A stretch of DNA of 64,000 nucleotides. It comes from Faecalibacterium prausnitzii. GTDB taxonomy: Bacteria > Bacillota > Clostridia > Oscillospirales > Ruminococcaceae. Positions 52,770 through 64,000 of the stretch are shown here, piece by piece. The position numbers were made by a program, and so were the translations under genes. The stretch lies in the NCBI RefSeq assembly GCF_019967995.1, contig NZ_CP065377.1, positions 1,798,001 to 1,862,000 on the forward strand, in the 5' to 3' direction. The stretch's first letter is position 1. Every line of letters begins with the position of its first letter. The notes beneath the pieces were generated by a model, which did no database searches, had not been told where the DNA came from, and saw only the letters and a list, made by a program, of their open reading frames with translations.

Positions 52770-54119
52770 TCAGAAGGGAAAGCCCAGTTGCTGGGCTTCC
52801 GCATCCGTCATTTCGGAGAAATCTTCAGCCCCGGTTTCGGGGCTGGTTACGCGCTCCCAGCCTTTCTGAACACCGTACTTCGGGTAACGCTTGGCGGTCT
52901 TGTGCGCCTGCCAGCCTTGGATATCGCCGCGCGAAATGCCGGTGTTCATGATCTCGCAGATAGCACGAGTCTCCCACTCTGCCGGGATATTGGTGTTGCC
53001 CAGTGCTTCCGCATAGAGCTGCTTGGAACACACCCGTTCACCCGTGTAGTCCTCCAAAAAGGCATAGATCATGCCCGCCTGTGCATCTTCCTGCATGAAG
53101 TCCTGCTGATGGGCTTGCAGGGTTTCCTGCATGGCAGGGCTGAACGCCAGCTTGTAGTTGCCGCTGTTGTAGATGGTCATAGCTTCCGCCCAGAGCTGGT
53201 CGATATAGGTGCGAGATTCCTCCTCATTGTCCAGAATGTGGACTTTGGCCTGTTCTGCATCTACCGGAACAGGGATGAAGCGGCGGTTGCCTGTGCGGTC
53301 ACGGGGCAAAAAATCCTGCCGGTTGGTCGTACCAGCAAAGACGCACTGGCGCAGACGGTCGGCAGGATGGGTCTCGTAGGGAATTTTATAGGTTTCCTTC
53401 TGCTTGCTGAGAAAGCTCTTGATTTCCTCGATGCTCTTGGCGTTGGCGGTGGCGATCATCTCTGACATTTCGATGATCCAGTGCCCTTGCAGCTTGCGGT
53501 ACACATTGTCATCGTCCAGCCGCCGCAGGTCATCCGAGAACCATTCGTCCTTGACTGCCAGCAGCCGGAAGAAAGTGGACTTTCCCACACCTTGACCTCC
53601 CACCAAACAGAGCATGGTCTCAAATTTACATCCCGGCTGGAACACCCGCTTGATGGCTCCCAGCAGGAAGATCTTCATGGCTTCGCAAGTGTACTCGTCC
53701 TCCGCAGCACCGAGAAAGTGGTGCAGGACGTGGGGGATCCGTTCCGTGCCGTCCCATTGCAGGCCGTTCAGGTAATCCCGGATGGGGTGATAGCGGTTCT
53801 CGTTGGCAACAATGCGGATGGCAGATTCGATTTTCTTTTCACTGGAAATGCCGTATTTCTCCATCCTCCGCAGGATATACTTCATGTCGGTGTCGTTCAG
53901 CGTCTTGCCGGAACGGGGCCAGCCCACAGGCTTTACAATGTCGATGCGCTCGCTCAACAGGTTCAGCCGGATGGCATCGGCAAGCACATGGTCGTTCTGC
54001 AGAATCGTGATGCAGTTCTGGATCGTCCGCTGGATTTCGCCGTTGGAGTGCTTGGTTAGCATTTCCTTCACATCTCCAACGGTTCGGGGAGTGCGTTCTT
54101 CGTTGACTTCTTTGCTCAA
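52770..54119 (-). CDS. Virulence-associated E (VapE)-family ATPase, 449 aa, TTG start
   Basis: The start TTG at 54119 overlaps the stop of the relaxase gene (TTGA) and has GAGGTGATG upstream. The P-loop is CLVGGQGVGKSTFFRLL (residues about 172-187) with downstream WIIEMSEM (Walker B) and FAGTTNRQDFLPRDRTGNRRFIPV, a superfamily 3-like helicase signature typical of VapE/primase-helicase proteins of phage satellites and mobilizable elements. It probably serves replication of the excised element. The iteron-like array follows its 3' end. Confidence 0.88.
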   Translation of the reverse strand: MSKEVNEERTPRTVGDVKEMLTKHSNGEIQRTIQNCITILQNDHVLADAIRLNLLSERIDIVKPVGWPRSGKTLNDTDMKYILRRMEKYGISSEKKIESAIRIVANENRYHPIRDYLNGLQWDGTERIPHVLHHFLGAAEDEYTCEAMKIFLLGAIKRVFQPGCKFETMLCLVGGQGVGKSTFFRLLAVKDEWFSDDLRRLDDDNVYRKLQGHWIIEMSEMIATANAKSIEEIKSFLSKQKETYKIPYETHPADRLRQCVFAGTTNRQDFLPRDRTGNRRFIPVPVDAEQAKVHILDNEEESRTYIDQLWAEAMTIYNSGNYKLAFSPAMQETLQAHQQDFMQEDAQAGMIYAFLEDYTGERVCSKQLYAEALGNTNIPAEWETRAICEIMNTGISRGDIQGWQAHKTAKRYPKYGVQKGWERVTSPETGAEDFSEMTDAEAQQLGFPF

Positions 54120-55351
54120 TAAACATCACCTCGTGTTTCTGACTTTTCGGCGGTAGGCGTGACAGATGGCTTCCGCTGTGCCTGTTCTGCCTGCAAGCGG
54201 TTCAGCAGCTGCAGAACGGAATCCCGTGCTTTCTCCTTGACCTGCTCCTTGCCCTTTTGCCGGACATCCGGCTTCAGGAGCTTCTCCTGCAAGCGGGCAG
54301 CGGTGGTCTGCATGGTCTTGAGGAACTTGTCCAGCACGGTATCCAGATGTTTTGCGGTGTACTCCCTCGTGGCCTTGGGAGCCTTACGCTCCGGGGACAG
54401 CACCCACTTCTTCGTGTCCTCGATCATCCGCATATCTTCCTTGCGGGTCTCGGTGCGCACCACCTCCGTCACTACCTCCACCGCCTTATCATAGGCTGCT
54501 GCCGAAACATCATCCAGAAGGGTCTCCATATCCGAAACTTTCAGGGTCAGCTCGTCCAGCCTGTCCTGCTGGGCGGCAAGCTGCTCCTTTTGCTTGGCAA
54601 GGATAAAATCCTGCTTTTCCAGATACTTGCGGTTGCCGTACTCCGCTTCTTCCTCCAGATCCAGCCCATGCCGCTTGGCAATCTCGAACAGCATCTTCCG
54701 GCAGGCGGCATCAAAGGCGATTTTGCGGTTGTTGCGGCGGCCGAGGGGTTTGCCCGGGTCAGGCAGTTCAAAACCCAACGCTTCCAGCGCCTTTTCCTGC
54801 TGGGGAGCTACCTCGCCGTACTTGTTCTCGCAGTCGAACACATGGCGTTCGTGGATGTGGGGCGTGCTTTCGTCCAGATGCAACGCCCAGTCCAGCACAT
54901 GAACGTGGTTGCCAAACTTTGCCTTGAATTCCTCGATGAACTCCGTGACGATGTTCAGCAAATCCTCTGCGGAAGCGTGTTCATCCAGCGTTCCAAGCTG
55001 GTAGATAGTTTCTTCCGGGCAGGTCTTGCGGCTGGACAGCAGGTCAGGAATGGAGCGGTTACGTTCAGTGTGCCGGATTTTGGCGTTGCGCTCGTTCTGA
55101 CCTTCGATGAAGGTTGTGTACCGGATCTCGTAAAACTGCCGTTCCACATCCGAGAAGGTTGCTGCCAGATCATTCGGGTCTTGTGGGTCGAGAGCCGAAC
55201 GGAAGCCATGGAAGCAGTCCCAGTAGATGTTGCCCTTGGCTCGTTCCGGGTCAATGTGCTCGCTGTTGGAAAGGTTGAAACTGCGGTCATTGTGCTTGGG
55301 GTTATAGGTGCCGTGGGTTCCGGCTCGTCCGTTGTGTCGTGTTAATTTCAG
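54116..55351 (-). CDS. MobV-like relaxase (plasmid mobilization/recombination protein), 411 aa, apparent CTG start
   Basis: The conserved N-terminus (KLTRHNGRAGTHGTYNPKHN) is preceded by GGAGGG at the right distance, but the codon at 55349-55351 is CTG; no ATG/GTG/TTG is in frame there. Either CTG is used or the start is further upstream. The relaxase motif HLDESTPHIHERHVF (residues about 158-172) supplies the metal-binding His and acidic residues of the MobV/Pre family. Residues about 255-400 are charged and coiled coil. It would nick oriT, allowing transfer by a helper element. Confidence 0.8.
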   Translation of the reverse strand: MKLTRHNGRAGTHGTYNPKHNDRSFNLSNSEHIDPERAKGNIYWDCFHGFRSALDPQDPNDLAATFSDVERQFYEIRYTTFIEGQNERNAKIRHTERNRSIPDLLSSRKTCPEETIYQLGTLDEHASAEDLLNIVTEFIEEFKAKFGNHVHVLDWALHLDESTPHIHERHVFDCENKYGEVAPQQEKALEALGFELPDPGKPLGRRNNRKIAFDAACRKMLFEIAKRHGLDLEEEAEYGNRKYLEKQDFILAKQKEQLAAQQDRLDELTLKVSDMETLLDDVSAAAYDKAVEVVTEVVRTETRKEDMRMIEDTKKWVLSPERKAPKATREYTAKHLDTVLDKFLKTMQTTAARLQEKLLKPDVRQKGKEQVKEKARDSVLQLLNRLQAEQAQRKPSVTPTAEKSETRGDVY

Positions 55352-56198
55352 ATAGACATCCCTCCGTTTCAACAGCTTGGTGGGGAGAACGCAGCAGCGA
55401 AGCTGCTGGATCTGCCGCCTTTTTGCGCCAGATAATACCCAGTAGGATATGACGCACAGCATCATATCACTGGGGCAAAGAGCTGCGCTCTCTGCACTCT
55501 TGCTCCGGGCAAGCTGTTCAGAAAAACAGCTCGTCCGGCTCAATGTAACGAGAGCCGGAAATTGTTCCGGCTCCCCCATCGCAGATAGGCTTACAGTCCA
55601 TCTGCGTCAATATGATATAGGTCTCCCATATTCGCCCTCGGCACCCTAGGAGTGGGGAATCGTCCGGCGGCGGGCTTGCACCGCACCATTGGCATTTCAG
55701 CCACCCCGCCTTCGTTATGGCCGGGCTGCGAATTACAGAAGTACCTTTTGTGAAGTACCGGACGATTGAACTATTCTGTTTTCAAGGAGCAGATTTTTAT
55801 AGAAAATCCTCGGAATTTAGGGCTTCCGAAAAATTATCCCTCTACTTGGTAGGCTTTGATAACGGCTAAATAATAGCCAGAAAAAGAAATTCGTTGAAAA
55901 GTTCTTGGAAAATATAGTCGAATCAACCGTTGAGTTAAAATATCGTCAGTTTATCGAGCAGCCAACTGAGGTAGACAATTTGCAACGGTGAGCGTGTCCA
56001 AAGTCGAAGCACTCTTGAAAAAAGATACTCTCACTTGGTAGCCGACGAGAAAGGCCATTTGGCACCCATTGACGATTCTTTGTAATAAAGTTGTTATAAG
56101 TACCTACCTCGAAAAAGTCCCCTCAATAGGTAGCCGGCGAGAAAGGCCAAAAAGTAACCATTTCAACAAATTTCCATAAAAGTTGCGCGAATAGCACA
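55352..56198. other. 850-nt non-coding region with oriT-like repeats
   Basis: No credible ORF is seen. Features: a perfect 10-bp inverted repeat AATCGTCCGG (55658-55667) and CCGGACGATT (55758-55767) with a 90-nt interior; GAAGTACC twice (55738-55745 and 55752-55759) beside the right arm; and a direct repeat of 21 bp with 20 matches (GGTAGCC-R-CGAGAAAGGCCA) at 56037-56057 and 56129-56149. Lying just upstream of the relaxase gene, it is the natural place for oriT. The AT-rich right half is also the possible leader of other transcripts. Confidence 0.45.
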
Positions 56199-56236
56199 AA
56201 AAGGCAGCCATCTGCACCCATGCAGACAGCCGCCTT
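56199..56236 (-). terminator. Terminator of the restriction-modification operon
   Basis: AAAGGCGGCTGTCTGC and GCAGATGGCTGCCTTT arms (mismatches in the middle), TTTTTG on the minus strand, 25 nt past the stop at 56262. Confidence 0.8.
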
Positions 56237-56261
56237 TGGTTTTATGCTGTATTCTATTTTC

Positions 56262-59200
56262 TCAATCTCTGAAGATCTTATCCAGTTCCCTTTCCATGGT
56301 GTCCGCCTTGGCAAATTCCAGCGTATCCGCCTGACGGATATGGTGGGCGGTGATGCCGTTACCCTTTGCAAAGCCCAGAATGTAGCTGATGGCAATGCGG
56401 TAGATGATCTCGGTCGGGGCAAGCCCATAGACCTGCTTGGCAAAGATATGTTCCAGCCGGGCGTTATCGTCCGGGAAGGCTTGCCGCATCTTCTCGCTGC
56501 GGTAAAGGTGCTTGACGATTTCCGTAATGTACAGACCGGACTTCATGTAGGGGTCCAGAAAGGTCTTGCCGGGGTCATCGAAGCAGCCGGGGTTTTCCTG
56601 CTCCAGCAGGTCTACCATCTTTTTCACCACCCACTTTGGGGTGAAGATCTGGTTGGTTTTCTGGGGCGGGATGTAATCGAAGATATCCTCGGTGCGGCTC
56701 TCGTCAAAGTAATCTGCCAGCTTGACCTTCAGGTTCAAGAACTCCTTCACCGAATCGTCAAACACTACCGGGTCGAACAGGTGGCCTGCAAAGTGCTCCT
56801 CCTGTCCGGTGGCTTGGTTGATGTACGGTCCACCGTCCCGCAAAAAGCGGAACTGTTCCAACGTGATGCTGGTGACCTCCTGAAAGACCTTGTCCGGGAT
56901 GATTTGGTCAAAGTTCGCCAGTGTCACGTTCTCGTCGCCATACGCCATAAGGAAGGACGGGATGGTGCGGGAGAAGCCCCGCAGATGGTCACGGACGGTG
57001 TCCTCGTAGCCCTTTTTCTCCTGCTCCTTCTGGTTGGTCTCCACGGTGCGCACGATGGTCTGCTGCATCTCCTGCGCCGTCTGCTGAATGGTGGTTTGCA
57101 ACGTCTCCATCAGGGCGGCGGTGCTCTGCTGCTGTTTTGCGTCAAATTCCCGGTTCACCTGCTGACGCTGCTGGGCGGTGGTGCAGCTCTGTAACTGCTG
57201 GGTGCGCTTTTCTTCCAACTGGCTCTGGTCGATGCGGTAGTTGTCCACCACCTTGTTCACCGCCACGTCCATCTTGGCTTTGGCGGTACTCTCAAACCGC
57301 TTCTGGTCGGACAGCTTCAGGTCCCGACCATACTCCTGCTTTGCCTGCTCCACCATGGGGGTGATGATCTCCTTGGTGATGCTCTTTTTCAGGGGTTCCA
57401 GATGCTCTTCTTTGGCAGGAGCCGGGGCATCGGTCAGGTCTTGCAGGGCGGTGTCCAGCGCCGGGGTGCTTTCGTAGATCTTCTCCCCGAACACATCCGC
57501 TGCCTTGCCGATGACGTAGCCCTCATCCAAGTCTACCTCGCCCTTGTCGTTCAGGGAGAGGTCTGCGCCGGTGTCCGGGGTGATCTGGATGGGCTTTGCC
57601 TTGGCTTCGCTGATGGGCTGGAAGTTTTGCAGAATGTCCAGCACCTCCTGCGGGGCACTGAACACGTTGGAAATGTTCTGGAACAGGAAGTTGCTCTGGA
57701 AACCCATCCGCACCACTTCTTTAGACTTGATCTTCCGGGGGATGCTGAGGACTTTTTCTGCATCCAGCGGGATCATCTCCCCTTCCTCGTCCTCACCAAT
57801 GACTGGGAAGAAGTTGAGCAGATTCTGAATGTGCGCCTTGCGCTCCCCGGTGCCGCCCTTGCCGCTAGCGGTGTCCTGTGAAAGGTCGTTGGCGAACTGC
57901 TCGTAGATCAGCAGAGTGCGGGCAGGGTCAAAATCGAACACATAGGCGTTCTCTTTGCGGCGGAAGGTGCCGTTTTCGTGGAAAAGGCAGGGGTTCTGGG
58001 CACGGAACGCTGCCTGCATATACAGCGCCGGGCTTTTCAGGTTGGAGAGCATCAGCACCGCCGACCACTCCGGGATGGTGACACCGGTGGTCAGCTGCCC
58101 CACCGACAGGGTAATGGTCTTTTCATGGTGGGCGATGGCGGCTTTTACCCGGTCAAAGCTCTTCTGGTTCTCGTCCGTGTCGTCCAGCTTGCCGTCACCG
58201 GCGGCAAGGATTACCTCATAGTCCCGGAACACCGGGTGCGCCTGCAGCTTTTTTGCCAGCGCTCTGGCACTGTCCACCCGGTTCAGCAGCCAGAAAGTGT
58301 GCTTCAGTTCGGCACGCAGTTCCGGGGTGGAAAACGGAAACTTGTTCTGGGTGGTCATAGCATCCAGAAAGCGGTCCACCTCGGCGTCGTGCTCAAAGCT
58401 GCCGCTGGGCTTCACCTTGAAGAATTCGTTCAGGTCAAAGGCAAATTCCTGCGTTTCGCCGTCGATCTCCACGCCCTGCTGAATTTCGTCCCGGATGATC
58501 TCGGACATCTGGTAGGTGTAGAGGTTGAGCATAGGGAGGTTTGCGTAGGGGTTCTGCTGCCCCGGTGCGCCCTGCCAGTTCCGCTTGGCGGCCTGCTCGT
58601 CGGCGTAGGTCCAGTTGAAGATGGCATCCCCGGCAAACTTATCGTTTGCCAGTGCCTTGAAGGGCGTGCCGGACAGGTGCAGCGTGAACTTGCGGCGGAT
58701 GTGGTCAAAGGCAAGGTCGGTCTTGTAGGTGTCCACGCCCTCGTGGGCTTCATCGATGACCAGCACATCCCAGTTCAGCTCGGTCAGGTGTTGCAGCTTG
58801 TCGTACTCGCCGCCGAAATACTTCGAGCCTTTCATGTCCTGCAGGCTGACGAACTCAATGCGCTTATACAGTTCCTCGCCCTGTGCGGCGGCATCCAGAT
58901 AGCCCTGCTCGTCCAGCACATGGGGCTGCCCGGCAAGGGCATCCACATGGCTGACAAACAGATAGCCGGACTCCCTGCCCAGAAAGCGCACATAGTCGCT
59001 GTACCAGCTATTGGCGATAGCAGGGCGGTTGGTGACGATGAGCACCGTCTGTGCATCGACCTGCTTGCAGAAATCGTAGACGGAAAGGGTCTTGCCAAAG
59101 CGGGGCTTGGCGTTCCAGAGGTATTCCCCGCCGGGGTGGCTCTGGTAATAGGTCTTGGTGTCGTGGACAGCCCTTGCCTGTTCTTCCCGCAGGGTGTAGG

Positions 59201-59570
59201 CGATGGCAGCATCCAGCTGCACCCGGCCCCGGTTCATGCGGAAATCCTGAAAATACCGCCGGGACTGCTGCCCATCCAGATGGAACCACTCGTTTTTGCG
59301 GTCGTTCTCCACGTTCAGCTTGCGGAGGTAGGCGTGGAAATCGTGGTCGGTGAACACCTCACCGCTGCCGTCATCGTAGACAGCATTGCCCCGCCACTCC
59401 TCATGGAACAGCACATCGGCGGTGTGGGTCTGCTGTTTCAGGCGTTTGTCCACTGACTGCTCGGTGTAGCCGATCTTCGTCCAGCCGTTGTGCCGGGCAA
59501 TTTCCGGGGTGGTATAGGCGTAGATCATGGGCACTACCTGCCGGGCAGTGCGCAGGGTTATGCCAGCCAT
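56262..59570 (-). CDS. Restriction protein: GIY-YIG-like nuclease + SF2 helicase + methylase-like C-terminus, 1102 aa
   Basis: The start ATG overlaps the methylase stop (TAATG) with AAGGAG upstream. Residues about 16-85 (MIYAYTTPEIARHNGWTKIGYTEQSVDKRL ... then GEVFTDHDFHAYL) look like a T5orf172/GIY-YIG nuclease. An SF2 translocase follows: Walker A AKPRFGKTLS (about 154-163), DEAH box LVIDEAHEG, SGTPF and QAAFRAQNP. Residues about 720-830 are Gln-rich coiled coil. The last 150 residues (NQIFTPKWVVKKMVDLL ... FLDPYMKSGLYITEI) resemble the start of an N6-methylase fold but lack NPPY. It is probably the DNA-cleaving subunit of the adjacent methylase. Confidence 0.75.
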   Translation of the reverse strand: MAGITLRTARQVVPMIYAYTTPEIARHNGWTKIGYTEQSVDKRLKQQTHTADVLFHEEWRGNAVYDDGSGEVFTDHDFHAYLRKLNVENDRKNEWFHLDGQQSRRYFQDFRMNRGRVQLDAAIAYTLREEQARAVHDTKTYYQSHPGGEYLWNAKPRFGKTLSVYDFCKQVDAQTVLIVTNRPAIANSWYSDYVRFLGRESGYLFVSHVDALAGQPHVLDEQGYLDAAAQGEELYKRIEFVSLQDMKGSKYFGGEYDKLQHLTELNWDVLVIDEAHEGVDTYKTDLAFDHIRRKFTLHLSGTPFKALANDKFAGDAIFNWTYADEQAAKRNWQGAPGQQNPYANLPMLNLYTYQMSEIIRDEIQQGVEIDGETQEFAFDLNEFFKVKPSGSFEHDAEVDRFLDAMTTQNKFPFSTPELRAELKHTFWLLNRVDSARALAKKLQAHPVFRDYEVILAAGDGKLDDTDENQKSFDRVKAAIAHHEKTITLSVGQLTTGVTIPEWSAVLMLSNLKSPALYMQAAFRAQNPCLFHENGTFRRKENAYVFDFDPARTLLIYEQFANDLSQDTASGKGGTGERKAHIQNLLNFFPVIGEDEEGEMIPLDAEKVLSIPRKIKSKEVVRMGFQSNFLFQNISNVFSAPQEVLDILQNFQPISEAKAKPIQITPDTGADLSLNDKGEVDLDEGYVIGKAADVFGEKIYESTPALDTALQDLTDAPAPAKEEHLEPLKKSITKEIITPMVEQAKQEYGRDLKLSDQKRFESTAKAKMDVAVNKVVDNYRIDQSQLEEKRTQQLQSCTTAQQRQQVNREFDAKQQQSTAALMETLQTTIQQTAQEMQQTIVRTVETNQKEQEKKGYEDTVRDHLRGFSRTIPSFLMAYGDENVTLANFDQIIPDKVFQEVTSITLEQFRFLRDGGPYINQATGQEEHFAGHLFDPVVFDDSVKEFLNLKVKLADYFDESRTEDIFDYIPPQKTNQIFTPKWVVKKMVDLLEQENPGCFDDPGKTFLDPYMKSGLYITEIVKHLYRSEKMRQAFPDDNARLEHIFAKQVYGLAPTEIIYRIAISYILGFAKGNGITAHHIRQADTLEFAKADTMERELDKIFRD

Positions 59571-61513
59571 TATGCCATCTCCTTTATAATGCTTTGTATG
59601 AATGCCACTTCATCAGAAGTTAGTTTATACTTTGAAAACAGTTCTTCATCTGTCCACGCTCTTGAAAAATCCTGAACAGGAACAAAACCAAACATACCTT
59701 TGCTGATATGCTGTGTCATCGCCAAAATCGAAATCAAAAAACGCACAAATCGTGTTTTTAGGTATCTCATATAGTTATCTGCTTCAGCTTCTGTGTCAAA
59801 TGCTCCTGCAACGAGATACGTTTCTGAACAAACTACTTTCGGCGGCTGCTTTTCCATTGTCGAGAGAATGCGGTATTGTCCGTTCTTATCGGGCTGTCCT
59901 GCGTGTTCTGCCGTCAAATATGAAATAATGATTTTATAGCGGTCTATATTTTCTATACCCGTAGAAATCAAACTTCTTTTATATGGGCCTATCCCACCAT
60001 TAAATCTCAGTTGAATATCTCCTGCTTTGAGCGGTTTCACATTTGTAGCAAGACCAAACGGCTTTCGGCTGGAAACTATCGTATCAAGCGTCTGCTCTCC
60101 TTTCAGACGCACCTTCTTAACTATCTCGGCAGCGATTGGATAACGAATAAATGTCGAAAACTCATTCAAATCACGGTATTCGGATGTCTTAACCCCATCT
60201 CGGTAATTTATGTAGTAGCATTTTCCCTCATGTGACTTAGCCCACACAAAATAGCATACACCACCAGCAACATCCACATTCGGAAAAACATCCAGCGAGT
60301 TAGGATAGTCAACGAGTACCGCCATTCGTTTGTCGTTTAACATCTGCTCTCGAAATTTATCCAACCCTTTACCACCAGAATACCATTTTGCTGGAATGAT
60401 AAAAGACATTGCCGTTGGATTCAATGTCTTTGTTTCCTCAATGAATTTGTTATATACCGGCGTTGCGCTTGCGCCTGAACCTCCATCAACTTCCTGATAC
60501 GGCGGGTTTCCGATGACATAATCAAACTTCATGCTGGTACTCCCTTCCTGAATGGTTTCAAAGTTCTGGGCGGTTCCATGGCTGCCCTTGCGCCAGTTTT
60601 TCACTTTGCAGGATACCGTGGGCGGCTGCGGCTCTGCCGCCCCGAACATGGAAAAGAGATCAAGCTGTTCTGTCTCCGGCTGGGGCTTGCCGCCGGGCAC
60701 AGACAGGTGCAAGCCGTCCATTTGCCACAGGTTCCAGCTGATGATGGTGGCGATAGGCTGTAACTCTTCTTTTGTGGGCTTGCGCTGCCAGCGGGCTTGC
60801 AGATGCTCTGCATAGGTCAGCAGCAGGTTGACCCGTGCCAACAAAAGATTATCTCCCTGATACTCATAGCCGTAGGTAGACTGCACCGCATGGGTGGCAT
60901 ATTTGCGCCACTCGTCCTCTGTGGCGGCGTTCTCGCTTACCACCCGCAGCTTGCGGTCCAGAATGCCAATGCGCCGGGCTACCGGGATCATCTCGCCAGT
61001 GGCGGCATCGTACCGGGATGCCAGAAAGGGGGCTTCGCCGCAGGTCACCTCCAAGCGGCGGCTCTGCACATACTGCACCCATGCCGGGGTCCTGCCCCCG
61101 CAAACCGGGAACTGCACCGGCGTTTCCACCGTCTGCCAGCCTTGGGGCAGCTCCACCGTGAACTGCCCGGCGCTCTCCTCTGCCCCCAGCCCACGGAACC
61201 AGTCAGCATCCAGCGCGTTATTCATCTTGTTGCAGACCCATGCGGGGCTGAACACCTCGCCTTTTTTGCGGGTGCGTTGCTGCTGGGTGTCGGTCTGCTT
61301 CATCATCCGGGGCAGCACCACCTCATAGTGGGTCAGCCTGAGCTGCTGTGCGGTGATCTGGGATCTATCCGTCACCGGCTCGTACATCACGGTTTGCAGC
61401 TCCTCCGGCGGGTCGGTTGCCCAGATGATGTTTTTACCGGTAGATTTATCTTTTAGTAGCGTATCCAGCACCGCCTGCACTTCCGGTGCGTGAAAGTCGA
61501 TCAGTTGTTCCAA
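59570..61513 (-). CDS. N6-adenine DNA methyltransferase/specificity subunit (Eco57I-like), 647 aa, TTG start
   Basis: GAGGAA precedes a TTG at 61513. Residues about 75-90 (RKKGEVFSPAWVCNKMNNALD) and the SAM-binding block RRLEVTCGEAPFLASRYDAATGE form motif X/I; GYEYQGDNLLLARVNLLLTY follows. The catalytic motif is GNPPYQ at residues 335-340, just after an abrupt switch from GC-rich to AT-rich DNA (about 60532). The remaining 310 residues should contain the target recognition domain. An internal ATG at 60532 has its own GAAGGGAG box. The protein modifies adenine in the recognition site and is coupled to the helicase-nuclease gene. Confidence 0.85.
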   Translation of the reverse strand: MEQLIDFHAPEVQAVLDTLLKDKSTGKNIIWATDPPEELQTVMYEPVTDRSQITAQQLRLTHYEVVLPRMMKQTDTQQQRTRKKGEVFSPAWVCNKMNNALDADWFRGLGAEESAGQFTVELPQGWQTVETPVQFPVCGGRTPAWVQYVQSRRLEVTCGEAPFLASRYDAATGEMIPVARRIGILDRKLRVVSENAATEDEWRKYATHAVQSTYGYEYQGDNLLLARVNLLLTYAEHLQARWQRKPTKEELQPIATIISWNLWQMDGLHLSVPGGKPQPETEQLDLFSMFGAAEPQPPTVSCKVKNWRKGSHGTAQNFETIQEGSTSMKFDYVIGNPPYQEVDGGSGASATPVYNKFIEETKTLNPTAMSFIIPAKWYSGGKGLDKFREQMLNDKRMAVLVDYPNSLDVFPNVDVAGGVCYFVWAKSHEGKCYYINYRDGVKTSEYRDLNEFSTFIRYPIAAEIVKKVRLKGEQTLDTIVSSRKPFGLATNVKPLKAGDIQLRFNGGIGPYKRSLISTGIENIDRYKIIISYLTAEHAGQPDKNGQYRILSTMEKQPPKVVCSETYLVAGAFDTEAEADNYMRYLKTRFVRFLISILAMTQHISKGMFGFVPVQDFSRAWTDEELFSKYKLTSDEVAFIQSIIKEMA

Positions 61514-61691: not shown

Positions 61692-61994
61692 ATGATTGGT
61701 GAGCGGCTGGCAGAATTACGAAAGCTGAATGGTGAAAAGCAACAAGTGTTAGCAAAAGCTCTTAGTGTTTCGGTTTCTACTGTCCGCAGTTGGGAGCACG
61801 ACAAAAGTTCTCCTGACCACTCAACACTGGTTGCAATTTGCAGACGCTATCATACTTCTTCTGATTTTCTGTTAGGTTTGTCCGATTACGATCCCTCCGA
61901 CAAAGCCCGCATCCAGCGCCAGCGCCTGACCGAAGAAGAACAGAACGAGATGCACCGCTACGAAGAATATTTGCTCTGGAAACGCAAAAAATAA
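61692..61994 (+). CDS. XRE-family HTH regulator, 100 aa
   Basis: The ATG at 61692 follows GAAGGG. Residues 4-62 are a Cro/CI-type HTH (ERLAELRKLNGEKQQVLAKA and LSVSVSTVRSWEHDKSSPDH, ending SSDFLLGLSD); a short charged tail follows. It is divergent from the restriction-modification operon across a 178-nt region containing an inverted-repeat operator in its own promoter, so autorepression and control of the methylase gene, as with C proteins, are plausible. It could equally be a general element regulator. Confidence 0.85.
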   Translation: MIGERLAELRKLNGEKQQVLAKALSVSVSTVRSWEHDKSSPDHSTLVAICRRYHTSSDFLLGLSDYDPSDKARIQRQRLTEEEQNEMHRYEEYLLWKRKK

Positions 61995-62052: not shown

Positions 62053-63369
62053 TTAAATACCTTTTAGAACTTTTCTTATTTTTCCCATATTATTTTTCAA
62101 ATCATGTCGAATTTCTTCATCTTGTCCATACTCTTCTTCAGCATGCTCAATATAGGTAAAATAATTTCCTCGTTTGCTCTTTGCACCATGTTCAGAATAA
62201 AGCGTATACAGACCAGAAAGATTGATATGATTTCCTTTTCTGGTATACCCTCCTGTTTTTGCAATATTTTTTGCCTTTCTGTGCATCCGGTAATAGTATT
62301 TGGCCGTCGTTTTAGAACGGATAAACACTTTCGTTCCATTAAACGAAAATCCCAAAAAATTGATAAATTTTTTACTATCGTCTGCACCTTTGTCTATCGC
62401 TTTTCCAATATTCTCAACCTTCTCTTCCTTATAATGAAAATATTGGGTTTTGCTCGGCTCCAATTTTAATCTAGGAGCACTTGCAATAAATGCTCTCACT
62501 TCAGAGAAGACATTCAGCGCATTATTGTTAGGTTCATCCGGCACTATCACAATAAAATCATCACTATACCGCATATAAAATCCGTGATATTGTTCAACTA
62601 GATCATGGATTTGCTTATCAACTTCCAGCATATAGAGGTTCGCCAACATTCCACTAATAGGTGATCCTTGTGGTATCCCGTAATGGTTCATATTTGGCTG
62701 TATGTGAGAACGATTGTTTTTATATTGTTCCGCTGTTAATACTCTTGATTGTTTATTGAGTGCGCGATGACCTGCTTTGTTGTCTTTCAGTTTATTTATA
62801 GCCAACAAGTCCGTCAGTTCCCATTGACTAAATGACGTGATATTCTTAAACACATTATAATGATCCTTTGGTAATCTTTCGCATTCCAATAACGAGCACC
62901 ATTGCTTCTTCAAGTAAGCATGGTCTAAGTTATCAAAGAAATGCGTAAAATCGCCAATCATCACATAGCAGTTTTCTGTCTTACGGATAAAATCGTAGGC
63001 CGCTTTGGAAAATTGAATATTGCTCTTTCCTAAATTTGTTCGATAGGCAACCGCAACATTAGAAATCCCATCACAAGTCGTTCGCTCGTTATATTTCTCA
63101 TTCAAAATGTGACTGTAATACTGATAAATGCACCGATCAATATGTGCTGCATAGCAAATATCACGTTTTTTAGGAACTACTCCTTTTCCTCTTTTAAACT
63201 TGCTCATATCCATCTCATAATGGATAAATGGATAAAATCCATGCGCTGCAACTGCTTTTGGATTTGAAGCATAATCTTTCATGCGACCGATATCTGTTCG
63301 CACATCAAAATGTGCATAATATCGCTTGCTTCTTTGAATTATCTTCTTATCACTTAACCAAGCATCCAT
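62053..63369 (-). CDS. Stand-alone reverse transcriptase, DRT2-like defence type (inferred), 438 aa
   Basis: The ATG at 63369 follows AGGGG; an in-frame ATG 8 codons earlier lacks one. Motif A is GDFTHFFDNLDH (139-150), motif B YGIPQGSPISGMLANLY (230-246), motif C YSDD (268-271), and NFLGFSF (337-343) is motif D/E. The N-terminal PKKRDICYAAHIDRCIYQYY and AYRTNLGKSNI are typical of 'unknown group'/defence RTs. There is no maturase domain (not a group II intron) and no retron NAxxH motif. The gene is AT-rich and preceded by a structured leader with its own promoter, the arrangement of DRT2 systems, where the RT copies an upstream ncRNA into repeat DNA. Confidence 0.8.
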   Translation of the reverse strand: MDAWLSDKKIIQRSKRYYAHFDVRTDIGRMKDYASNPKAVAAHGFYPFIHYEMDMSKFKRGKGVVPKKRDICYAAHIDRCIYQYYSHILNEKYNERTTCDGISNVAVAYRTNLGKSNIQFSKAAYDFIRKTENCYVMIGDFTHFFDNLDHAYLKKQWCSLLECERLPKDHYNVFKNITSFSQWELTDLLAINKLKDNKAGHRALNKQSRVLTAEQYKNNRSHIQPNMNHYGIPQGSPISGMLANLYMLEVDKQIHDLVEQYHGFYMRYSDDFIVIVPDEPNNNALNVFSEVRAFIASAPRLKLEPSKTQYFHYKEEKVENIGKAIDKGADDSKKFINFLGFSFNGTKVFIRSKTTAKYYYRMHRKAKNIAKTGGYTRKGNHINLSGLYTLYSEHGAKSKRGNYFTYIEHAEEEYGQDEEIRHDLKNNMGKIRKVLKGI

Positions 63370-63687
63370 TGCTTTAATACCCCTAAAATGCAATATCCAT
63401 CGGCACGAGGAATAGCGTCTCTAAGCCGATGGATATACGTTTGACGTGGTTACCCCTATTACCATAAAGGATTTTCAGAGTTCCCAGCTATTCTGTTAGC
63501 GCAATCATCAATTATGGTATAATTGACTGGGAGGCGATTGTCGTGATTTCATCAATCAGTCTGATTCTAGCATTTGCTACATCAGCATCAACAACCGTGT
63601 CAACTGTGCTGCTAAATATTCTCGAGAATATTCTAGCAGGAGAGTTGACAACAATCTCCTTCCCCCATACCTTTCGTATGGGGCACT
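63370..63687 (-). ncRNA. Structured leader/ncRNA of the reverse transcriptase (candidate RT template)
   Basis: A promoter (63691-63718) places the RNA 5' end at about 63684-63687. In order the minus strand folds into: a 5'-terminal hairpin CCCCATAC/GTATGGGG (63663-63683); a long stem CTGCTA-G-AATATTCTC/GAGAATATT-TAGCAG (about 63608-63640); a 111-nt segment flanked by ACAG copies; a small GCTA-ACAGAA-TAGC hairpin displaying the second ACAG in its loop; and a 12-bp stem ATATCCATCGGC/GCCGATGGATAT (63393-63436) just before the RT ribosome binding site. Such structure is not expected of an ordinary 5' UTR. The role as RT template is inference. Confidence 0.6.
63493..63603 (+). other. 111-nt stop-free unit between CTGT copies (neo-like endless ORF)
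   Basis: CTGT occurs at 63493-63496 and 63604-63607, exactly 111 bp (37 codons) apart. On the plus strand (the sense of cDNA made from the RT leader) only one frame is free of stops across the unit and across a head-to-tail junction. That same frame contains TATAAT (63518-63523), GGGAGG (63529-63534) and a GTG start (63543). The unit encodes a hydrophobic, helix-prone peptide with segments SAIINYGIIDWEAIVV and ISSISLILAFATSAS. In unrearranged DNA the frame runs to a TAG at 63753-63755 (70 aa). Confidence 0.55.
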
Positions 63688-63690
63688 TTA

Positions 63691-63718
63691 ATTATAGCAC
63701 TTTTTACCAAGTAATCAA
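63691..63718 (-). promoter_or_regulatory. Promoter of the RT leader
   Basis: Minus-strand TTGATT (63713-63718), 16-nt spacer, TATAAT (63691-63696) with extended TGC; transcription would start at the base of the 5'-terminal hairpin. Confidence 0.8.
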
Positions 63719-63764: not shown

Positions 63765-64000
63765 TTATAACATTTTGCCGATATACTTCCGCAGTCCATC
63801 TTCCGTCCGAATATTATACTTCTCATCCACCTTTTTGAAGTAGTCCTTCATCGCATCCAGCGAAATCTCCGCATGAGAAGTTTCGTCTGGCAGAAAGCCC
63901 TTCCGGGCATCCAGCCAAGGCGTTTCTTTGTGGGTGATGCTTTCCAGAACCTTTCCACTGTACATACCAAAGGTATCCAGCACCCGGTCTACCACCTCTT
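63765..64000 (-). CDS. C-terminal part of a Panacea/SocA-type antitoxin protein (partial, cut by window end)
   Basis: The frame is open to the right edge. The visible 78 residues (VVDRVLDTFGMYSGKVLESITHKETPWLDAR, then ISLDAMKDYFKKVDEKYN) match the C-terminal half of the DUF4065/Panacea domain, a chaperone-like antitoxin fold associated with many toxins and with phage-encoded GepA. Its toxin partner, if any, lies outside the window or is absent. It ends 47 nt before the RT promoter. The GTG near the edge is not the true start. Confidence 0.7.
   Translation of the reverse strand, partial: EVVDRVLDTFGMYSGKVLESITHKETPWLDARKGFLPDETSHAEISLDAMKDYFKKVDEKYNIRTEDGLRKYIGKML

Follow-up and report, generated by a model that had tools for sequence, protein, structure and literature searches.

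A DRT2-family reverse transcriptase locus of Faecalibacterium prausnitzii predicted to build a neo gene by an AUU-to-AUU template jump

The Locus

The 64,000-nucleotide stretch of Faecalibacterium prausnitzii DNA analyzed here (hereafter the window) carries on its minus strand a gene for a reverse transcriptase (RT), preceded by a structured leader RNA and a predicted promoter. The RT is a member of the Drt2 family: the PADLOC Drt2 models match it with 472 and 317 bits, against 76 for the next non-Drt2 model, and its best PDB matches are DRT2 structures (e.g., 9c0i, 9lv7). The initial annotation of the locus had called the sequence unrelated to DRT2, a description contradicted by the RT itself. 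The 438-residue form of the protein is also present in the protein database, and its nearest named relative by RT is that of another Faecalibacterium locus (L012, 87%). Throughout the text coordinates refer to the window, and the basis of each feature is given in brackets.

62053-63369 (-): DRT2-family reverse transcriptase, 438 aa, YSDD active site (PADLOC and PDB matches)
63691-63718 (-): predicted promoter of the ncRNA and RT, TTGATT, 16 nt, TATAAT (sequence)
63393-63685 (-): leader ncRNA, ends deduced (fold and covariation)

Structure of the Leader RNA

63663-63683 (-): 5′ handle hairpin (covariation, 22 leaders)
63611-63685 (-): Rfam RT-6 RNA (RF03027), handle and first part of the template (Rfam match)
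63653-63655 (-): AUU-1, 5′ end of the template and predicted donor end of the jump (AUU offset in relatives)
63506-63526 (-): template hairpin around the complement of the -10 box (pairing in relatives)
63503-63505 (-): AUU-2, just 3′ of the template, predicted jump acceptor (AUU offset in relatives)
63487-63493 (-): pseudoknot strand 1, GAAUAGC (covariation)
63410-63416 (-): pseudoknot strand 2, GCUAUUC, in the tower loop (covariation)
63393-63436 (-): tower hairpin, arms 63425-63436 and 63393-63404 (predicted fold)

A structured ncRNA with a 5′ handle and a pseudoknot lies upstream of the RT gene. The stretch from 63383 to 63690 folds far better than its shuffled versions (z -8.2), and covariation, scored in 22 chosen leaders rather than in the whole set, bears out most of the individual elements. 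Seven of the eight pairs of the 5′ handle show changes on both sides. The pseudoknot, formed by the strand after AUU-2 and the tower loop, is paired in 100% of the scored cells, with changes on both sides at five of its seven pairs, and the template hairpin (helices 2 and 3) is paired in 86-95% of cells. The tower hairpin is taken from the predicted fold. Five measures were compared with 500 shuffles: for four of them no shuffle attained the observed value, for the fifth three did. Versions of the structure slid along the leaders pair in 36-52% of cells versus 96.6% for the true one, which is favored in this comparison by having been drawn from the window.

The front of the leader matches the Rfam family RT-6 over the full length of the model (positions 1-75 of 75) at 78.4 bits, against a cut-off of 46.7, and the match begins where the promoter at 63691-63718 would start transcription. 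RT-6 covers the handle and the first part of the template only, not the whole leader; a literature search by term found no function for it.

A 150-nt Unit that Rebuilds a Promoter

63506-63655 (+): neo unit of 150 nt or 50 codons, a single frame being stop-free in tandem copies (head-to-tail joining, homologues)
63645-63650 (+): -35 box TTGACA, 17 bp from the -10 box only after joining two units
63515-63523 (+): extended -10 box TGGTATAAT, with TATAAT at 63518-63523
63529-63534 (+): Shine-Dalgarno-like GGGAGG (sequence)
63543-63545 (+): predicted GTG start codon, replaced by TTG in L012
63493-63603 (+): 111-nt unit of the initial annotation, bounded by CTGT, boundary poorly conserved

Of the 16 direct repeats of at least 4 nt listed for the window, two delimit an in-phase, stop-free unit: ACAG (111 nt) and GATTG (150 nt). 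The shorter was the subject of the initial annotation, and much of that description stands: the unit is present between its CTGT bounds, one frame of three is free of stops in head-to-tail copies, and TATAAT, GGGAGG and GTG all lie where they had been placed. These signals exceed chance, a find of this type (a 4-nt repeat, a length divisible by three, an open frame, an exact TATAAT, a Shine-Dalgarno and an in-frame start) having turned up in 5 of 6000 dinucleotide shuffles. As the source of a promoter, however, the 111-nt unit falls short, for it leaves out TTGACA and no full promoter is rebuilt.

The 150-nt unit is bounded in the RNA by two copies of GAUUG and ends at the foot of the 5′ handle. 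It holds 12 nt before the -10 box and 5 nt after the -35 box, it is a whole number of triplets, and its frame stays open across the predicted head-to-tail junction, TTGACAACAAT/CATCAATTATGGTATAAT (slash at the junction). The junction brings the -35 and -10 boxes to 17 bp from one another, with both hexamers perfect and the -10 box extended (TGG). A 5-nt repeat with an in-phase open frame is by itself common (2368 of 3000 shuffles); joined to a junction promoter with at most one mismatch it occurred in none of 6000 shuffles, and under looser terms (at most two mismatches, the promoter anywhere in the repeat) in 44 of 3000.

Conservation in Related Leaders

Relatives were drawn from a scan of genome contigs, of which the best 80 of 119 candidates were taken; 77 of these had a leader, and adding the window and three loci found by other searches gives a set of 81. 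Three loci (L083, L085, L087) were dropped for having little or no upstream DNA, and L008, L092, L093 and L097 stand outside the leader counts. Since the loci include near duplicates (e.g., L014/L015, L040/L041), cluster counts are used below.

A first scoring sought the RNA motif AUUGUUGUCAA downstream of the handle and AUUAUA-N12-AUU upstream of the scaffold, anchors with a score of at most 2 being called close. All 54 leaders with close anchors have a unit that is a multiple of three and free of stops in the same phase, at lengths from 111 to 192 nt; shuffling the unit interiors would leave 5.7 of 54 open. A second frame is also open in two of them (L012, L036). With looser anchors, a candidate was found in 75 of the 81 leaders, 67 of these being multiples of three and 66 also open. 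No candidate was found in six leaders (L029, L065, L074, L075, L086, L088), eight are out of phase (L058, L069, L076, L078, L080, L089, L090, L091) and one lacks an open frame (L081); nearly all of these are distant or weakly anchored.

The second scoring was blind to AUU and used exact TGTCAA together with AUUAUA plus the extended -10 box, one mismatch being allowed. It matched 53 of the 81 leaders, 50 uniquely, and at a 17-bp spacer all 50 unique units are multiples of three; each of the three ambiguous leaders has one candidate in phase and one out. Of the 50 unique matches, 47 have AUU 5 nt before the -35 complement and 41 have it 12 nt after the -10 complement. The two schemes pick different units in L067, L080 and L090. 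The bases shared at the boundaries are reduced to AU in some leaders from Paenibacillus and Lactobacillus. Exploratory reading of distant leaders yields other short repeats with open frames (e.g., TTCG in L069, TCAAGT in L090), often with many candidates per locus, and these were not counted as support.

The 54 RTs represent about 31 clusters at less than 70% identity, a number that truncated RTs such as that of L038 may slightly inflate, and their units have 16 different lengths. Spacings within the scaffold of these leaders, by contrast, are not in phase: the counts for the three residues modulo 3 are 21/14/8 for one motif (43 of the 54 leaders) and 13/6/5 for a second (24 of 54). Since certain phases of TTGACA and TATAAT are already ruled out by an open frame, the chance expectation is more safely set at one half per cluster than at one third; even so, on the sequences compared, triplet phasing is far from chance.

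These comparisons bear on where the template is cut. A jump between ACA(G) sites as in Klebsiella would give the 111-nt unit, a period of 37 residues and transcription from the extended -10 box alone. ACA is the jump triplet reported for DRT2, the ACAG pair of the window is in phase and open, and L012 also has an ACA pair 111 nt apart. However, ACA occurs near the 3′ boundary in only 16 of the 54 close-anchor leaders and ACAG in 7, TTGACA falls outside the unit, and AUU-1 occupies the foot of the handle, the position at which the template is described as beginning in Klebsiella. We therefore consider this cut very unlikely, the homologues disfavoring the 111-nt unit as a repeat in spite of the pair in L012. 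Because AUU rather than ACA holds fixed offsets in most leaders, the unit is put at 150 nt and the period at 50 residues, in place of the 37 residues given earlier.

Another account would do without repeats. The genomic frame is open from the GTG at 63543 as far as 63755 on the plus strand and could be an ordinary small antisense gene, 70 codons long and transcribed chromosomally from the extended -10 box. What is conserved, however, is the phase between the two AUU sites and not the frame past the template, and TTGACA, which in the chromosome lies downstream of the -10 box, makes sense only after joining. An antisense gene of this kind is thus extremely improbable. The principle put forward in the initial annotation, that leader cDNA joined head to tail gives a promoter-driven gene without a stop, like neo, is strongly supported by the homologues.

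The Predicted Neo Protein

Read endlessly, the 150-nt unit of the window would encode the repeat INYGIIDWEAIVVISSISLILAFATSASTTVSTVLLNILENILAGELTTI. Mean hydropathy is 0.82 over 66 predicted repeats and 1.27 for the window. The ends of the repeat, LNY.II and LTT, follow from the promoter and jump sequences, whereas the core is variable. One 49-residue repeat was modeled as a single helix spanning residues 3-48, at low confidence (mean pLDDT 71, pTM 0.37).

Selection on codons is weak. Pooled over 24 pairs, pN/pS is 0.61 for the neo frame versus 1.00 and 0.79 for the other two, and for the window against L012 it is 1.47. We infer that the main targets of selection are openness, hydrophobicity and the promoter.

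Such weak codon-level selection would also fit a product that acts as DNA or RNA, the open frame being a by-product of repeat synthesis and no protein being made; homopolymer or tandem-repeat DNA has been described as the product of DRT9 and DRT10. Against this stand the triplet lengths with one constant open phase in every close-anchor leader, the rebuilt promoter and Shine-Dalgarno of the window, and the reported requirement of Klebsiella defense for the open frame. We regard a purely nucleic acid product as highly improbable and retain the reading in which the repeats are translated.

Loci Outside the Clade, Plasmids and Phages

Six loci outside the clade (L094, L095, L099-L102) were scanned with equal boundary triplets demanded, and no in-phase open unit was found in them; L099 is bounded by two ACTG copies that lie 145 nt from each other, out of phase. 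In a freer scan L095, a drt2-annotated locus on the Photobacterium damselae plasmid pPHDD1 with 52% identity to the solved DRT2 piece, yielded an open 111-nt unit with perfect boxes spaced by 17 bp and AGAT shared at the boundary. The freer scan gave looser candidates only, which were not counted, in L099, L100 and L102, and nothing in L094 and L101. L095 yielded no ACA pair that was in phase and open, and the ACA rule is here taken from published work.

Matches occurred in 30 plasmid records. The best 30 of 240 plasmid records include no close Klebsiella-type RT, all 240 being under 60% identity, and a Klebsiella-type ACA locus that could serve as a positive control was not recovered from the plasmid records or the out-of-clade loci. 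Viral contigs gave 17 pattern matches with no relative among them. Eight phage records have a match, which in three spans 80% or more of the query. The one phage record opened, a fecal 'Bacteriophage sp.' contig (L097, MT839204.1), has a 165-nt unit with AUU (AUUGU) at both ends.

Comparison With Known Systems

Neo genes were established by Wilkinson et al. (PMC12039810) and in the preprint of Tang et al. (PMC11100668). For 42 close relatives of the Klebsiella system, Wilkinson et al. (PMC12039810) describe ACA bounds and name units of 111, 117, 120 and 129 nt. In the DRT2 of Klebsiella pneumoniae TATAAT is placed 12 nt from one end and TTGACA 12 nt from the other, 17 bp apart after joining, and the RNA is divided into handle, template (from about nucleotide 29), pseudoknot, buttress and tower (PMC12039810, PMC11100668). 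The locus analyzed here has in common with it the DRT2-family RT, the upstream ncRNA with 5′ handle, template, pseudoknot and tower, the -35 and -10 boxes rebuilt at 17 bp over the junction with about 12 nt from junction to -10, and the triplet unit with an open frame and a hydrophobic repeat.

The differences lie in the jump triplet, AUU here and ACA there; in unit length, 150 nt for the window and 111-192 nt across the 54 close-anchor leaders, against 111-129 nt named for the 42 Klebsiella relatives; and in the extended -10 box and GTG start. ACA triplets of the Klebsiella type were not found at both template ends, where AUU stands at fixed offsets. By eye, no counterpart of the SL2 basal stem of Klebsiella DRT2 was seen.

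As far as the parts of this literature consulted go, neo is defined by ACA bounds near Klebsiella, which a 2025 structure paper in NAR (PMC12596737) again treats. The titles, abstract openings and passages surveyed in the DRT2 literature since 2024 showed no AUU variant; the final journal version of Tang et al., outside this survey, may treat the clade. Their preprint (PMC11100668) describes Neo annotation in divergent clades as challenging and allows for alternative mechanisms, and a cut based on AUU offers an answer to that difficulty. Wilkinson et al. (PMC12039810) compare the jump with repeat addition by telomerase, in which a short repeat at the template end likewise re-aligns the nascent DNA, and regard the likeness as convergent. 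Unlike that of telomerase, the repeat unit here would be long, coding and promoter-forming.

Proposed Mechanism

We propose that this is a DRT2-family RT locus whose leader RNA is copied head to tail in 150-nt units, by a jump from AUU to AUU, into a promoter-driven, stop-free neo gene, and give this reading a probability of about 0.86. Sequence and its comparison among loci show the RT family, the structure of the RNA, conserved anchors, triplet unit lengths and the open frame; ncRNA binding, priming, jump, second strand, transcription, translation and growth arrest we infer from the Klebsiella DRT2 accounts (PMC12039810, PMC11100668). The RT would bind the ncRNA and copy it from AUU-2 to AUU-1 at the foot of the 5′ handle, whereupon the AAT end of the nascent cDNA would re-anneal to AUU-2, in place of TGT on ACA, and the cycle would repeat. 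After infection the concatemer would become double-stranded, and every junction would set TTGACA 17 bp from TGGTATAAT and so start transcription. Ribosomes would start at the GTG behind GGGAGG and make a hydrophobic repeat protein of 50 residues per unit, which would arrest the cell and stop phage spread. On this view the loci compared belong to a DRT2/neo system found mostly in Bacillota, which would use AUU in place of ACA and have mostly longer repeats.

A broader proposal, which we hold with somewhat better than even confidence, is that an AUU-to-AUU jump builds neo across the whole of this DRT2 branch and that the triplet is a free parameter. The place of the jump repeat, which lies between handle and pseudoknot, 5 nt past the -35 box and 12 nt before the -10 box, would be fixed, but ACA and AUU would be interchangeable there, perhaps also with AGAT or another short repeat. 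A Neo repeat would have about 37-64 residues, and RT-6 would be the front end of the template. Position may weigh more than the letters of the jump repeat, as the exploratory scans suggest. If the triplet has changed and the geometry has not, divergent DRT2 systems would become readable. Work on the function of Neo would then gain dozens of new sequences, the essential part of the jump rule would become apparent, and the Rfam family RT-6 would acquire a role.

Neighboring Genes

Upstream of the locus, a gene at 63765-64000 (-) runs past the window (L098:11766-12149; 127 codons, partial SocA/Panacea antitoxin domain) and ends directly upstream of the ncRNA promoter; upstream of it in turn lies a GroEL-like chaperonin gene, named by eye. 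On the other side, a small HTH regulator gene (HTH_3) at 61692-61994 (+) lies between the RT gene and an Eco57I-type methylase gene at 59570-61513 (-), and a similar HTH gene adjoins the RT gene in L093. The methylase gene and a ResIII helicase gene at 56262-59570 (-) adjoin the DRT2 locus, followed by a weak Mob_Pre match, under its cut-off, at 54116-55579 (-) and a VapE-like gene at 52770-54119 (-). The whole stretch at 52770-61513 (-) looks like defense cargo on a mobile element. The genome also holds a second reverse transcriptase gene (L001, G000:C1:885229-885897, minus strand), which has the stronger RVT_1 match at 143.9 bits.
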